NCBI RefSeq assembly: GCF_021502675.1
Contig: NZ_JAKFHA010000011.1
Location: 62,001-126,000, forward strand
From: Yinghuangia soli
GTDB lineage: Bacteria > Actinomycetota > Actinomycetes > Streptomycetales > Streptomycetaceae
Direction of reading: 5' to 3'
DNA: 64,000 nucleotides
Numbering within the stretch: position 1 is the first letter of the stretch; every line of letters begins with the position of its first letter. Shown here one piece after another: positions 43,126-60,574 of the stretch. The translations under genes were made by a program, and so were the position numbers. A model generated the notes under the pieces. The model saw only the letters and a list, made by a program, of their open reading frames with translations, ran no database searches and was not told the DNA's origin.

Positions 43126-43761
43126 GCGCGGGAGGCTAACAGGAGGAATCCCCCGGGCAGCTGGGCATGCGGACGGCATCGAGGCGCGGAGGCCAAGCGG
43201 AGGAAAGTGCCGGGCCGCGGACCGCCGGGGCACTCTTCGGGGACGGCTCGGGCGGTTCGTGGACGGTTCGGGGAGTTGGGAGGCAGGGGTCTCCGGTCCC
43301 GCCCGGGACCAATTCGGGAGCCGCCACGGGAATGCGCTGCCTGGGATGCGTTATACGACCTGGGGTTCGGTCGCTCGCGGCGATGTCCGCCGATTCCGCG
43401 TGCGCTGAATTCCCGGCCGGACCGTTTGTCCTCGGCGACTCGGGTGCGCGCTGCCTTCGTGATCATTTCGGTGGCGTGCGGACCTCGGACGCAAAACGAC
43501 GACCGGGGACAGGCGGCGGGATGGGCATTCGCAGGCTTCGGGTGGCGCCGCCCGGCCCTCCCCGGTCGCGGATCGGCACCGCAACAGCCCTGTGCAGCCA
43601 GGGGTTTTGCGGTGCGCGGGCAGCAGCCGCGGGCGTTCGGCGCCGGCGGTGCGGGTTTATCCGGGCGCCGTGCCTGCGGATTTCCGTCAGATATTGCCGA
43701 ACGCCGTGGGTAATTGCGGCTTCTTTTTCGGCGGGTCCGCGTGCTGCCCTATCCTGCTGCC
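43126..43761. other. 635-bp intergenic stretch without a recognisable gene
   Basis: This is the gap between the divergent SDR and M20 genes. Long frames on both strands are Arg/Gly/Pro-rich shadows with no family character. Short GGTTCG repeats occur near 43245-43285. I see no hairpin, tRNA or coding unit that I can support. Promoters of both flanking genes should lie at its ends; TATCCT at 43750 is close to the M20 ATG. Confidence 0.5.
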
Positions 43762-45012
43762 ATGACTCGCCCCACCCGAAATGCGGACGCCCGGATCGTG
43801 CCGCAGCGTTCCGCCGACGATCTTTCACGGCGATCACAATCGGAACTTCTGGCGCTGGCCGATCGATTCGCTGCGGAAATCGAACCGGAAATGATCGAGT
43901 TCCGCAGGGATCTGCACCGCCACCCGGAGCTGGCGTTCCAGGAATTCCGCACGACCGGACGGGTCGCGGACCGCCTTGCCGCGGCCGGCCTCGCGCCGCG
44001 CGCGCTCGGGCACACCGGCCTCGTCTGCGACATCCCCGGCGACGCCGAAGGCGCGACCGCGCTTCGCGCCGACCTCGACGGGCTGCCGGTGCACGACGAG
44101 AAGGACGTCCCGTACCGCTCCACGTTCCCCGGCATCAGCCATGCCTGCGGGCACGACGTCCATGTCGCGGGCGTCCTCGGGGCCGGGGTGGTCCTCGCCC
44201 GGATCGCCGCCGAACGCGGCCTGCCCCGCCCGGTCCGGCTCCTCTTCCAGCCCGCCGAGGAAGCCATCGCGGGCGCCCGGATGATGATCGACGCCGGCGT
44301 CCTCGCACCCGTGCGCCGGGTCCTGGGGGTGCACTGCGACCCGAAGATCCAGGTCGGCCGGATCGGCCTGCGCACCGGCCCGCTGACGTCCGCCTGCGAC
44401 CTGGTGAAGATCACCGTGACCGGCCCCGGCGGGCACACGTCGCGCCCGCACGAGAGCGTCGACATCCTGTCCGCCCTGGCCGCCATCGCGACCGCGGTGC
44501 CGAGCGTCGTGGCCCGCACAGTCGATCCGCGGGTCGGGCTGTCCATCGTGTGGGGCCGCATCGAGGCCGGGAGTTCGTTCAACACCATCGCCTCGCACGG
44601 GGCCGTGGAGGGCACGTTCCGCTGCACCGACGAAGCCTCGTGGATGCGGTTGCCGGGACTGGTGCACGCGGCCATCGAGGACCTGTCGTCGGCGTACGGG
44701 GTCGACACCGAAGTCGCCTACACCCGGGGCGTGCCGCCGGTGGTGAACGAGGCCGCCAGCATCGACCTGCTGCGCCGCGCGGCGGAGCACGGGCTGGGTG
44801 CGGAGGCCGTGGTCGGCACCGAACAGAGCCTGGGCGGCGAGGATTTCGCGTGGTTCCTGCGCGAGGTGCCCGGCGCGATGGCGCGCCTGGGCGTGGGGCG
44901 CCCCGGGCGTACCGGCGAATTCGACCTGCACCAGGGCCACTTCGACGTGGACGAGCAGGCGGTCCCGGCGGCGGTGAGGGTGCTGGCCGGCGCGGCGCTG
45001 CTGGACGTCTGA
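43762..45012 (+). CDS. M20-family amidohydrolase (aminoacylase/hippurate hydrolase type)
   Basis: A 416-residue zinc/manganese amidohydrolase. The family opening is EFRRDLHRHPELAFQEF near residue 48. Metal ligands are in ISHACGHDVHVAG (around 126-138), the catalytic glutamates in LLFQPAEEAIAGA, and a further His in VLGVHCDPKIQ. The dimerisation domain includes GPGGHTSRPHESVD. This subgroup removes acyl groups from N-acyl amino acids or related amides. ATG at 43762 was taken; upstream codons to 43714 look unrelated. It stands alone and is followed by a large hairpin. Confidence 0.88.
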   Translation: MTRPTRNADARIVPQRSADDLSRRSQSELLALADRFAAEIEPEMIEFRRDLHRHPELAFQEFRTTGRVADRLAAAGLAPRALGHTGLVCDIPGDAEGATALRADLDGLPVHDEKDVPYRSTFPGISHACGHDVHVAGVLGAGVVLARIAAERGLPRPVRLLFQPAEEAIAGARMMIDAGVLAPVRRVLGVHCDPKIQVGRIGLRTGPLTSACDLVKITVTGPGGHTSRPHESVDILSALAAIATAVPSVVARTVDPRVGLSIVWGRIEAGSSFNTIASHGAVEGTFRCTDEASWMRLPGLVHAAIEDLSSAYGVDTEVAYTRGVPPVVNEAASIDLLRRAAEHGLGAEAVVGTEQSLGGEDFAWFLREVPGAMARLGVGRPGRTGEFDLHQGHFDVDEQAVPAAVRVLAGAALLDV

Positions 45013-45035
45013 CCCGCCCGGCCGCGGAAAAGCAG

Positions 45036-45100
45036 CGACCCGCAGGCCTTCCCTCACTGGGGAGGGGGCCGAGGGGACGTCCTCGGCAGCCTGCGGGTCG
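45036..45100. terminator. Branched terminator between the M20 gene and a minus-strand RNA
   Basis: The outer arms 45036-45047 and 45089-45100 are perfect over 12 bp. Inside, GCCGAGG (45068-45074) pairs perfectly with CCTCGGC (45081-45087), giving a branched fold. T-rich tracts lie outside both ends (CTTTT on the minus strand, GGTTTT on the plus strand), so it can serve both directions. Confidence 0.78.
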
Positions 45101-45259
45101 GGTGTCTGCCTGGTTTTCGCCGACCGCCTGACACCTTCCGCAACGGTGCACTCGTTGCGGGTCAGACTTCGGTCGGGAGACCGGAGTGGCGGCTAGCGGG
45201 CAGCCACCTCACGCGTCCGATTGCTACACATAAGATCGAACCACCTCCTTTCCCGTGTA
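45101..45259 (-). ncRNA. Candidate structured small RNA with a 12-codon leader frame
   Basis: On the minus strand a promoter-like TTGCGG-17-TAACTT (45294 to 45266) is followed by AAAGGAGGTGG (45251-45241) and a 12-codon frame at 45231-45193. Four hairpins come next: GTGGC/GCCAC (45186-45207), CGGTC/GACCG (45070-type arms at 45170-45183), an 8-bp perfect CCGCAACG/CGTTGCGG stem (45138-45160), and GGTGTC/GACACC (45101-45135). The terminator at 45036-45100 ends it. No minus-strand gene lies downstream, so a trans-acting RNA is more likely than a leader. Family unknown to me. Confidence 0.55.
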
Positions 45260-45429
45260 CCGCAGAAGTTAGATCCACATCGGCGGCACCGCAACGGATT
45301 AAACGGGTGGGGGATGTCACCCCTCGGACGGGAATAAGCCGGACGCTTTAGCGGTCGTTCCCACGGGGCGCGCTGCCGGTGAACAGCGTTGGCAGGCGTG
45401 TGAGTTGCGCTCGGCTGCGGGCATCGGGG

Positions 45430-47856
45430 TCAGGCGCGGGGCCGGCGGACCAGGAGCAGGGTCCCGGTGCCCAGGGCGAGGAACACCAAGGACAGCAGGA
45501 CCAGGACGTGCACTCCGTCGGCGCCGGTGTGCGCGGTGGTGGCATGTGCCGAGCGGTCCGGCGGTGCGGGGTGCGCGGGCACGGCGTGGCTCCCGCCGGG
45601 CGCGGGAGCCGGCGGCGGCGTGCCGGGCGGCGGCTCGCCGGGCGGGGCCGTGGGCGGGGGAGTCTCCCCGCCGTCCGGGGGCGTGCGCTTCAGGACGTTG
45701 TCGATGGCGATGCGCACGTTCTGGCCCGGCCGCACGGTGAAACTCTCGCCGAGGCGGTACGGACTCCCCGGGTCGGCCGGGCCGGTGGTGAGCGTTGCGG
45801 AGGTGGCGACGTCCACGCCCGCGGCCGCGCCGGAGGCCGTTTCGGCGATGGTGCAAGTGATCGGGTCCGGGAGGATGTACTGCCCGGTGGTCGCGGAGGT
45901 GTCGCCGACCGGGACGGTGAGGCGTCCGCTCTGCCCGGTGGCGCAGGTGGCTTCCAACTGGGCCGCCGCGGGGCGCAGGCCCGTGTCGCCGCTGGTCGTC
46001 TTGACCACTTCGAGCGTGGCGGACGGCTGGTAGGTGTTGGTGAAGCGGCAGGTCGGGCGCGGCTGGGCGGCGGTGAGGCGGATCTGCACGGTGGCCGCGG
46101 CGGCGTCCAGCGGGGACGTCTCCGCACCGCCGCAGTCGACCGAGGTGACCTTCCAGTAGCCCGCGTCGGAGGTGGGCGGCAGGAACTCCTGGATGGTGTA
46201 GCGGACTTCGTCGCCCACCACGAGCTTGTCGGCAAGCGGGCCGGGAGTACCGTCCGGGCGCACGGCGTCGGCCGGGGTGCCTTCGGCGGTGGTCGATGCC
46301 GAGCCGTGGTAGGTGCTGTCGTCCGGTCCGGCCTTGCGCACGCGGCTGTGCGGCGTGACGGCGTAGCCGAAGGTGCCGGTGCCGCCCTGGCTGACCTTCT
46401 CGACGTAGATCGCGCCGCCCGGCGTGAAGGTGTTGGTGAGCAGGCACTTCACCGGTCCGGCGGCGGCCACGTCGTAGGCCGCGGACCACGTGGTGGCGGT
46501 CTCGGTGATCGGCACGTCCGTGCCGTTGCAGTTCGCCCCGGTGAGCTGCCAGGTGCCGGTGCCGTCGGGCGCCGGTTTGACCTCGGTGGCGGTGTAGGTC
46601 CCGGGCGTGATCCCGGCGGGCGCCTGGGCCACGGTGATGGGGACGCCGTCCCGGACGGTGGTCACCGGGGTGGTATTCGTCGGCGGGACGCCCGGCGGGG
46701 TGCCGAGCGAGATGGCGAACGTTCCGGTGCCGCCGATGGTCTCCTTCTCCAGCAGGGCTGTTCCGCTGGTCCGCCGGTTGGTGTACGTGCAGGTGACGTT
46801 GTCCCCTGCGGCGAGCACGACCGAGGCCTTGCCGGTGGAATCGACGGAGACGGCGCTGGTGCCGGCGCCGCCGTTCGCGTTCACGATCGTGCAGGCGGGG
46901 GTCGTCGGCGGCAGCCACCCGCTGCCCGGCGTGACGATCTCCTGGAACTGCCAGGGGGCGTCGCCCGGACGCGTCTCGCCGCGTACGAAGGTCATCGAAC
47001 TGCTCTTGCCCGCCGAGGCGGTGAGCAGGAAGTCGTTCACGCCGTCGCCATTGGTGTCGGCGTAGGAGATGTTGCCGTCGAAGCGGAACGTGCCCTGTCC
47101 GGGGCTGTCCGGCGCGACTTCCTTGACGACGGTGATGGTCCCGGCGCTGGGCGGCGGGGTGACGGCGTAGTAGTAGCAGAACACGTGCCGGGCGTCGGCG
47201 GGGAAGCTGACGTACTCGACGTTGTCGCCGTTGATGGCGTCCTGGGCGCAGCGCAGCGCGGCGAACCCGTACTGCTCCTGCATGCCGTTGAGGGGCTGGG
47301 ACGGCGTGCCGCCCTGCACGACGAGCCAGCCCGTCGCGGCCACCTTGATCTCCGCGGGGGTGAGCGGCACGGTCACCGCTCCTTCGAGCGTGCGGCCGGT
47401 CGGCATCCCCTGGGCGTCGAGTTCGGGGATGCTGCCCGCGGTGGTGGTGATGTTCTGCCGGATCACCCCGGTCGCGGTGCTCAGCTGCAGCGAGGCCGGG
47501 GTCTTGGCGGTCAGCCCGGTGCCGGTGGAGAAGGTCCAGCCGGGCAGCGGCTTGCACGGCGGCAGCGGGGTGCCGGCGGCCTCCTTCTGCGCGCTCACCG
47601 TCTCGGAGCGGTCGTAATTGGAGTCGGGGCCGAGGTCGCGCAGGGACTCCTGGAGGTTGTTGCGCGCCTTGTTGGCCATCACCTGGGAGTACTGCTCGCA
47701 GGACCGGGCCACGAACGTGACCGAGAGGGGCTCCAGGCGGGCCAGCGCCCCCGGGGCCGCGGTGGCCTTGTCCGGGGCGGACGTGCCCAGAACTCCTGCG
47801 GCCAGCCCCAGCACAGCCGCCACGACCACGAACTTCCGTGTCCACCGGACCGGCAC
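45430..47856 (-). CDS. Large secreted surface protein with repeated prealbumin-like domains
   Basis: An 808-residue protein. A signal peptide (RKFVVVAAVLGLAAGVLG) leads into about 200 residues of unassigned sequence with several cysteines. Four similar beta domains begin near residues 243, 367, 483 and 615, marked by VVKEV, LLEKETIGGTGTF, YVEKVSQGGTGTF and VVKTTSGDTG, as in SpaA/DUF5979-type stalks. A Pro/Gly spacer and a C-terminal TTAHTGADG, helix and RRPRA tail follow, a variant sortase signal. GTG at 47856 follows GGGGG; the frame stays open to 47901. It is probably a wall-bound stalk or adhesin. Confidence 0.82.
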   Translation of the reverse strand: MPVRWTRKFVVVAAVLGLAAGVLGTSAPDKATAAPGALARLEPLSVTFVARSCEQYSQVMANKARNNLQESLRDLGPDSNYDRSETVSAQKEAAGTPLPPCKPLPGWTFSTGTGLTAKTPASLQLSTATGVIRQNITTTAGSIPELDAQGMPTGRTLEGAVTVPLTPAEIKVAATGWLVVQGGTPSQPLNGMQEQYGFAALRCAQDAINGDNVEYVSFPADARHVFCYYYAVTPPPSAGTITVVKEVAPDSPGQGTFRFDGNISYADTNGDGVNDFLLTASAGKSSSMTFVRGETRPGDAPWQFQEIVTPGSGWLPPTTPACTIVNANGGAGTSAVSVDSTGKASVVLAAGDNVTCTYTNRRTSGTALLEKETIGGTGTFAISLGTPPGVPPTNTTPVTTVRDGVPITVAQAPAGITPGTYTATEVKPAPDGTGTWQLTGANCNGTDVPITETATTWSAAYDVAAAGPVKCLLTNTFTPGGAIYVEKVSQGGTGTFGYAVTPHSRVRKAGPDDSTYHGSASTTAEGTPADAVRPDGTPGPLADKLVVGDEVRYTIQEFLPPTSDAGYWKVTSVDCGGAETSPLDAAAATVQIRLTAAQPRPTCRFTNTYQPSATLEVVKTTSGDTGLRPAAAQLEATCATGQSGRLTVPVGDTSATTGQYILPDPITCTIAETASGAAAGVDVATSATLTTGPADPGSPYRLGESFTVRPGQNVRIAIDNVLKRTPPDGGETPPPTAPPGEPPPGTPPPAPAPGGSHAVPAHPAPPDRSAHATTAHTGADGVHVLVLLSLVFLALGTGTLLLVRRPRA

Positions 47857-47947
47857 GACCACCCCCAAGGTTGAGGGGCGTACGACGGCACCCCAAGACA
47901 ATTAGGACAAATAGCAACATTAAGTGACGGCGATATCACGCTGTGTA

Positions 47948-59866: not shown

Positions 59867-60574
59867 CTACCCCTGTGCCGGTGCTGCTTCCGCCGTCGAC
59901 TTCTCCAGCATGGCGAGGGTGTTGGCGTGGGTGCCGACGACGTGCTGCCGGGCGAGTTCGGCGGCTTTCGCGGAGTCGCGGGCGGCGATGGCGGCGTAGA
60001 GCCGCTCGTGTTCGCCGCACATGGCGGCGCCGTCCTCCGGGGTGGAGGTGAGCCGGAAGAGCCGGCGGAGCCGGCCGTCGAGCGGCGTCATCAGGTCCTT
60101 GAGCAGCGGGTTGCCCGACATGTCCACGATTTGCTGGTGGAAGTCGGCGTTGAGGGCGACGGCCTCGCGCAGGCGGCCGTTCCCGGCGGCGCGGCGGGAG
60201 CGGTCGAGGATGCGTTCCAGGGACCGAAGTTCGGCGTCGGTGGCGTGTTCGGCGGCGAGCCCCGCGGCGAGGGCTTCGAGCGACTCGCGGACCGCGAAGA
60301 AGTGCCGGGCGTCCTCGGGGCCGAAGTCCGCGACGACCGCGCCCTTGCGCGGCTGGATGGCGATGAACCCCTCGGTCTCCAGGCGCTGCATGGCCTCGCG
60401 CACGGGGATGCGCGAAACGCCCAGCTCCTCGGCGATCTCGCGCTCCACGAGCCGGCGGCCCGCCGCGTACTGGCCCTCGATGATGCGCTCGCGCAGTTCG
60501 ACGTACGCCTGGTCCCGCAGCGACCGGTGGGCGTCGCCCATGCTCGGGCCGTCGGCGGGGGTGCGGGGGCTCAT
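59867..60574 (-). CDS. GntR-family (FCD/FadR-type) transcriptional regulator
   Basis: A 235-residue repressor. The N-terminal winged helix contains GRRLVEREIAEELGVSRIPVREAMQRLETEGFI, and the C-terminal all-helical FCD domain has metal-ligand histidines in NADFHQQIVDMSGN and in the HERLYAAIAARD segment. FCD regulators respond to organic acids and control adjacent catabolic genes. It is divergent from an amidohydrolase-permease pair with a TGGTAT/ATACCA palindrome between them, the form typical of this family. ATG at 60574 was taken; a second Met lies at residue 12. Confidence 0.9.
   Translation of the reverse strand: MSPRTPADGPSMGDAHRSLRDQAYVELRERIIEGQYAAGRRLVEREIAEELGVSRIPVREAMQRLETEGFIAIQPRKGAVVADFGPEDARHFFAVRESLEALAAGLAAEHATDAELRSLERILDRSRRAAGNGRLREAVALNADFHQQIVDMSGNPLLKDLMTPLDGRLRRLFRLTSTPEDGAAMCGEHERLYAAIAARDSAKAAELARQHVVGTHANTLAMLEKSTAEAAPAQG

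Follow-up and report, generated by a model that had tools for sequence, protein, structure and literature searches.

Dual-function small RNAs such as SgrS/SgrT, RNAIII/hld and Spot 42 are encoded by discrete small-RNA genes that contain a short ORF and end at a terminator of their own. In leader-peptide attenuators, alternative helices ahead of a terminator compete with the reading of a short ORF by the ribosome. The described RNA closest to the locus reported here is the Rfam family RF02471, Ms_IGR-5 (M. smegmatis IGR-5), one of the small RNAs with the widest conservation in actinobacteria, including mycobacteria and Streptomyces. Members of the family have been reported as transcripts in M. 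smegmatis (ncMSMEG15794c, which is IGR-5; PMC10454040), in S. lividans (SLIV_16488, by RNA-seq; PMC8079986) and in S. avermitilis, where the RNA is a discrete transcribed unit (PMC8780764). The published literature accessible to us gives no function for Ms_IGR-5, and the accessible surveys of coding sRNAs do not mention the family.

The window analysed here is the whole stretch of 64,000 nucleotides of Yinghuangia soli DNA. Positions 45258-45030 of its minus strand form a complete small-RNA gene of 229 nt, and an Rfam search matched this gene to RF02471 with 102.6 bits (E 6e-22; curated cut-off, 45 bits) along the full length of the model (1-184). The original prediction had been unable to assign the RNA to a known family, which this match corrects. 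No Rfam family besides RF02471 was found between 44700 and 45600, even at E<=10, and the window has no Rfam match to scr5239, which had been put forward for comparison, or to 6C RNA, both of them likewise actinobacterial small RNAs. The 229-nt RNA folds with -116.8 kcal/mol and a z of -4.5, equalled by none of 200 shuffles, and the terminator part alone gives a z of -5.1 against shuffles; together with the RF02471 score, these values bear out the earlier claim that the architecture is beyond chance. The locus is like RF02471 in its full-length match, single copy, intergenic position, P3 helix around the stop codon and terminator; the accessible family description is without the P2 helix, the likely pseudoknot (PK) and the ORF described below. 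Ms_IGR-5 is already known as a family, and the locus itself is no discovery. The conserved frame, the corrected long-range fold and the match to 16S rRNA described below are, as far as the accessible literature goes, undescribed. From the comparison of homologs, we lean towards the view that the locus, the single genomic copy of Ms_IGR-5, encodes a ribosome-engaging, translated regulatory RNA.

Ms_IGR-5 is intergenic and occurs once per genome, and the 9.7 Mb genome of Yinghuangia soli likewise contains one copy. RF02471 was found in 3 of 3 genomes of the genus, 117 of 119 of the order and 193 of 297 of the class, and the matches in other classes of the phylum are weaker yet real. Neither the Rfam search nor an independent pattern search found the RNA in families f7, f26, f27, f36 and f38 of the class, several of which have small genomes. 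Its absence from several families of the class indicates that the RNA is dispensable in some lineages, and it was probably lost more than once. One genome of the order contains a second, weak RF02471 match of 27.6 bits (L282, G023:C377:10470-10603), in which the 5' profile matches nothing. A full RF02471 RNA (76.9 bits) was also found at 301-476 of MT835602.1 (L322), an unverified 'bacteriophage' contig from human faeces, with the frame GTG ATT TCT GAT CGG ACA TGT GAG GTG GCT CGC CGC TGA; this contig is probably bacterial or prophage. Three pattern matches in a viral collection were dismissed as chance, two of them failing the RNA profile and the third being without the Shine-Dalgarno segment SD1, and the M20 hydrolase, used as a query against viral contigs, gave no match.

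The gene has its own promoter and terminator. On the minus strand, the -35 element TTGCGG (45294-45289) is followed after 17 nt by the -10 box TAACTT (45271-45266), and the -35 element together with the preceding A/T tract, TTTAAtccgTTGCGG, covers 45289..45303; the predicted transcription start is near 45260. All 137 homologs compared have TANNNT at the -10 position, 19-21 nt before the Shine-Dalgarno sequence, and when they are aligned on this box, the first -35 position is T in 126 of 137 and the AAA tract is present in about 85%. The homolog promoters share an order of A-tract, about 5 nt, -35 T(T/G)G, 17-18 nt and TANNNT, and the conserved A-tract points to an UP-like element or to the site of a regulator. 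A generic sigma-70 scan of the window did not call the promoter. At the other end, folding gives a branched terminator (45036..45100, minus strand) made of P4, P5 and a third stem, in which the 12-bp outer stem P4 (CGACCCGCAGGC/GCCTGCGGGTCG, 45100-45089 with 45047-45036) encloses two inner hairpins, one of them P5 (45086-45081 with 45074-45069), and a U-run (TTTT) follows at 45028..45031. The original prediction had described the promoter-like element, a strong Shine-Dalgarno sequence, a 12-codon frame and a branched terminator in one orientation, and each of these was recovered on the minus strand.

The 12-codon ORF MCSNRTREVAAR followed by TAG lies at 45193..45231 of the minus strand and reads ATG TGT AGC AAT CGG ACG CGT GAG GTG GCT GCC CGC TAG in the window. 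We sought the 5' part of the RNA in 285 loci, of which 137 distinct homologs were retained, picked by a covariance model that is blind to the frame; L114 and L136 (both at a stretch edge), L118, L141, L152 and L183 were left out for having no SD1. The frame is kept in these 137 homologs. Codon 1, seven codons before GAGGTG, is ATG in 59, TTG in 55, GTG in 20, and CTG and ATT in one each, with L263 having its ATG one codon earlier than the others. The stop, five codons from GAGGTG, is TAG in 124, TAA in 7 and TGA in 5, and the one CAG at this position is followed at once by TAG. Non-stops at codon 13 number 1 against 5.5 by shuffling, with none of 2000 shuffles as low, and in-frame stops number 0 against 11.4 expected by column shuffling (minimum 4 in 1000), with the other two frames closed in 102 and 126 of 136. 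Length changes within the frame are in whole codons only (L125, L171, L263). Outside the class, the frame stops at the same codon (TAG, TGA or TAA) in all 20 loci and never sooner, the shifted frames being closed in 13 and 18 of the 20. Several of the out-of-class starts are CTG, ATT or ATC, and L298 has ACG alone. The first codon is ATT, ATC or CTG in L046, L304, L307, L308, L292 and L293; such starts are discriminated against by initiation factor 3.

These counts bear on the explanation that the RNA is an ordinary trans-acting non-coding sRNA whose frame is a by-product of strong sequence conservation. Such an RNA would fit the Rfam type of the family, which is sRNA, and the high base-level conservation of the 5' third. 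It does not explain why different start codons (ATG, GTG, TTG) and different stop codons (TAG, TAA, TGA) replace one another, why codon 13 is so seldom a non-stop, why indels preserve the phase or why the out-of-class homologs agree, and we regard it as very unlikely. Judged by these patterns of conservation, the 12-codon frame is under selection, and Ms_IGR-5 is probably a translated RNA and not a purely non-coding one. The original prediction had listed the frame as one feature among several; the frame is there, and it was underrated, being the feature under the clearest selection. A conserved translatable ORF inside the sRNA, which marks dual-function sRNAs, is therefore found here in terms of sequence conservation.

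The peptide itself is poorly kept. Among 136 homologs there are 118 different peptides, and at codons 2-4 the third-position entropy is about 1.3 bits against 1.6-1.7 bits at the first and second positions. Glu-Val is invariant and Thr is kept in 128 of 136, and the conservation of T, E and V is largely explainable by the pairing of their bases in RNA helices. GC3 is low at codons 2, 3, 7 and 10 in Streptomycetales (0.03-0.33), which fits a frame shaped by RNA structure and not by codon preference. Based on the kept frame and the poorly kept peptide, we suggest that what counts is probably the process of translation itself. The RNA could instead be a tiny mRNA whose product is the peptide M-x-x-x-[RW]-T-[RC]-E-V-[AT]-[AV]-[RSG], its helices regulating translation or stability, and the frame, start and stop that are kept across the phylum, as well as the invariant Glu-Val and nearly invariant Thr, speak for this. 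We consider it unlikely, since so many peptides differ, since third positions at codons 2-4 are no more variable than the others, which is the opposite of protein-level constraint, and since most of the invariant residues are encoded by bases that pair in P2 or PK.

The segment before the frame is extensively complementary to the 3' tail of 16S rRNA. Positions 45237..45253 of the minus strand (GGAAAGGAGGUGGUUCG) pair without a break with the 16S tail over its last 17 nt, G-U pairs allowed, in a scoring that used the 16S 3' end from a mycobacterial relative, and the mycobacterial copies form 17-18 pairs. Inside this segment lies SD1, AAAGGAGGTG (45251-45242), with AAAGGAGG at 45251-45244; RRGGAGGTG is present in all 137 homologs, and RAAGGAGGTGRTYCG was found once in the whole 9.7 Mb genome. 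The spacing between the Shine-Dalgarno sequence and the start codon is mostly 10-12 nt and varies by single bases among homologs; SD1 is placed 12-14 nt before the start codon, a distance longer than usual, which counts against the ribosome-engaging, translated reading. L291, in which SD1 is AAAGGGGGTG, was considered as a compensatory SD1-16S change and rejected, because its 16S tail is canonical and the change is merely A-U to G-U, which is uninformative. Every homolog carrying SD1 also has an internal Shine-Dalgarno-like GAGGUG (45205..45210, minus strand; codons 8-9, Glu-Val), and this motif ends 6 nt before codon 12, approximately where the Shine-Dalgarno helix would lie with the stop codon positioned in the A site. 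In M. abscessus and M. smegmatis, ribosome-protected reads have been reported on Ms_IGR-5 (PMC4974804), and the conserved frame offers a reason for these footprints. Because 6C and F6 RNAs were footprinted in the same Ribo-seq study (PMC4974804), footprints alone are weak evidence of translation.

The complementarity could itself be the function, with the 17-nt duplex holding or storing 30S subunits or acting on 16S ends and the ORF providing an exit for the ribosome. The near-invariant extended Shine-Dalgarno sequence, its 17 pairs, the occurrence of one such site in the genome and the equally invariant GAGGUG are what would be seen in a ribosome-binding or ribosome-titrating RNA. This explanation leaves the conserved stop codon, the in-phase indels, P2 and PK unexplained, and an RNA encoded in single copy would need very high abundance for the titration of ribosomes; we consider it rather unlikely.

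Four elements of the conserved fold involve the frame. P1 (45215..45241, minus strand) pairs GUUCGAU (45241-45235) with AUCGGAC (45221-45215) and places the start codon at its apex; two covarying pairs lie above all shuffles. P2 joins GGUGGCUGCC inside the ORF (45199..45208) to GGCAGACACC in the linker directly 5' of the terminator (45101..45110). In the sequence-profile alignment its consensus is GGUGRCUGCN (codons 8-11), complementary to N'GCAGYCACC in the linker, and 94.5% of the cells of this 10-bp helix are paired, compared with at most 60% for slid versions. At least 9 of the 10 pairs form in 131 of 136 homologs, and five pairs have two-sided changes. When 60 diverse members were aligned with MAFFT, without structural constraints, two-sided changes in P2 numbered 33, where shuffles give 8.5 (0 of 500 shuffles reached this), and the whole structure with P1, P3 and P5 scored above every shuffle on each measure. 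Two-sided changes in P2 were also counted between near neighbours, in 68 non-overlapping pairs: 19 were compensated and 9 broken, where a linker-permuted null gives 5.1 and 16.6. P3, in agreement with Rfam, pairs GCUAGCCGCC (45197-45188), which contains the stop codon, with GGCGGUCGGC (45128-45119) and closes a variable branched middle (45119..45197) that holds the 8-bp perfect stem CCGCAACG/CGTTGCGG noticed earlier. In the internal loop between P3 and P2 lies the conserved linker GAAUNCCN (here GAAAACCA; 45111..45118; profile of 136 homologs).

The fourth element is a likely pseudoknot between GGAC in codons 5-6 (45215..45218), which is also the 3' arm of P1, and GUCC in the apical loop of P5 (45075..45078), which is GUCC in 130 of 136 homologs. 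Paired cells amount to 240 of 240, the loop is AUCC in 6 of the 8 cases where GGAC is GGAU, and two out-of-class loci pair CGAC/CGAU with GUCG; the two-sided changes are few, several of them in one clade. Since GGAC is common to P1 and PK, one of the two would be transient, or wrong in some species. The 5' helix drawn by Rfam, which pairs GGUGGU of SD1 with GCUGCC, can form in the window and was set aside, because family-wide its pairing frequency does not exceed that of shuffles and two-sided changes are absent; this result questions the drawn family structure, not the membership. The single-sequence minimum-energy fold of the 5' half was rejected, as it differs from the covarying helices. 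The original prediction had described successive local hairpins and had named lack of conservation of the stems in relatives as its own refutation: the stems are present and conserved, but the conserved fold is partly long-range, joining the ORF to the linker and perhaps to the terminator loop.

A short ORF, alternative pairings and a terminator are also the anatomy of an attenuator, and the RNA could be a cis-acting leader of a neighbouring gene. In the window the next gene downstream is an M20 hydrolase (43714-45012, plus strand) convergent with the RNA, so that, as had been predicted, no minus-strand gene follows as a cis client. By a rough gene finder, 169 of 264 loci have their next gene on the other strand, and no same-strand downstream gene is conserved across the 264, the neighbours changing between lineages. 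We regard a cis-acting leader as extremely unlikely. As read from the sequences, many Streptomyces copies converge on pdxH beside citrate synthase, mycobacterial copies follow a class IV aminotransferase and are convergent with a gene for a fatty-acid-binding-like protein, and further copies precede an MFS transporter or a phosphoglycerate mutase. The mycobacterial neighbourhood is, we assume, the gene order of Rv0812 and Rv0813c, and the Streptomyces copies by pdxH and citrate synthase presumably lie near SCO4388-4389, which by gene order would make scr4389 possibly the same locus. scr4389 is a named S. coelicolor small RNA (PMC8388888).

For the translated, ribosome-engaging RNA that we prefer, the anatomy points to a competition between translation and folding. 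A 30S subunit would dock on the extended Shine-Dalgarno sequence and open P1, and the ribosome would then read the 12 codons. The 5' strands of PK, P2 and P3 are codons 5-6, codons 8-11 and the stop codon, respectively, so a reading ribosome would have to melt all three, and translation and the long-range fold should be mutually exclusive. GAGGUG is at about the right distance to hold the ribosome at the stop codon. Translation would thereby switch the RNA from a closed to an open form and back, the linker GAAUNCCNNGCAGUCACC being free in the open one, and if the RNA is a gated sRNA, GCAGUCACC would be its predicted contact site for RNA partners while it is translated. Candidate outputs are pairing of the freed linker with mRNAs, turnover of the RNA, or the holding of ribosomes. 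We propose that in such a translation-gated RNA the frame and its length matter and the peptide does not. The original prediction had also taken the RNA to be free-standing and able to act in trans; the promoter, the terminator and the missing client support the first part, and they make trans action probable. More tentatively, as a possibility that we hold with low confidence, Ms_IGR-5 may be a free-standing, trans-acting sensor of the state of translation, which captures ribosomes by a duplex with the entire free 3' tail of 16S rRNA and, by way of translation of a peptide-indifferent 12-codon frame or of stalling at its stop codon, opens P2 and PK and exposes a conserved linker acting on other RNAs or proteins.

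Compared with dual-function sRNAs, Ms_IGR-5 is alike in its discrete gene, short ORF and own terminator. It differs in keeping the frame and not the peptide, in an ORF of merely 12 codons that forms one strand of the main long-range helix, in an SD1 that matches the 16S tail over 17 nt, and in having no known base-pairing target, the pairing found here being a predicted one with 16S rRNA. It resembles leader-peptide attenuators in the competition between ORF and helices and differs from them in being free-standing with no downstream client; to our knowledge, an attenuator without a client gene is a kind of RNA that has not been described. An RNA filed as non-coding is probably read by ribosomes, and with the frame, the fold and the 16S match, an sRNA that had lacked an explanation becomes open to test; for this, the start codon, the stop codon, P2, PK and the 16S-complementary segment are the indicated targets of mutation.

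Several further observations were made in the window. The other flank of the RNA is occupied by a SpaA-type surface protein (45430-47901, minus strand) with three stretches of prealbumin-like domains (PF24514) and a hydrophobic C-terminus followed by RRPRA. ARAGORN called a tRNA-Ala(CGC) of 100 nt at 59932-60031 on the plus strand, which is long for an alanine tRNA and may be a false call. Overlapping the P2 linker, the plus strand has at 45093-45109 a terminator-like hairpin with CTGGTTTT, by which the transcript of the M20 hydrolase could end antisense to the RNA.
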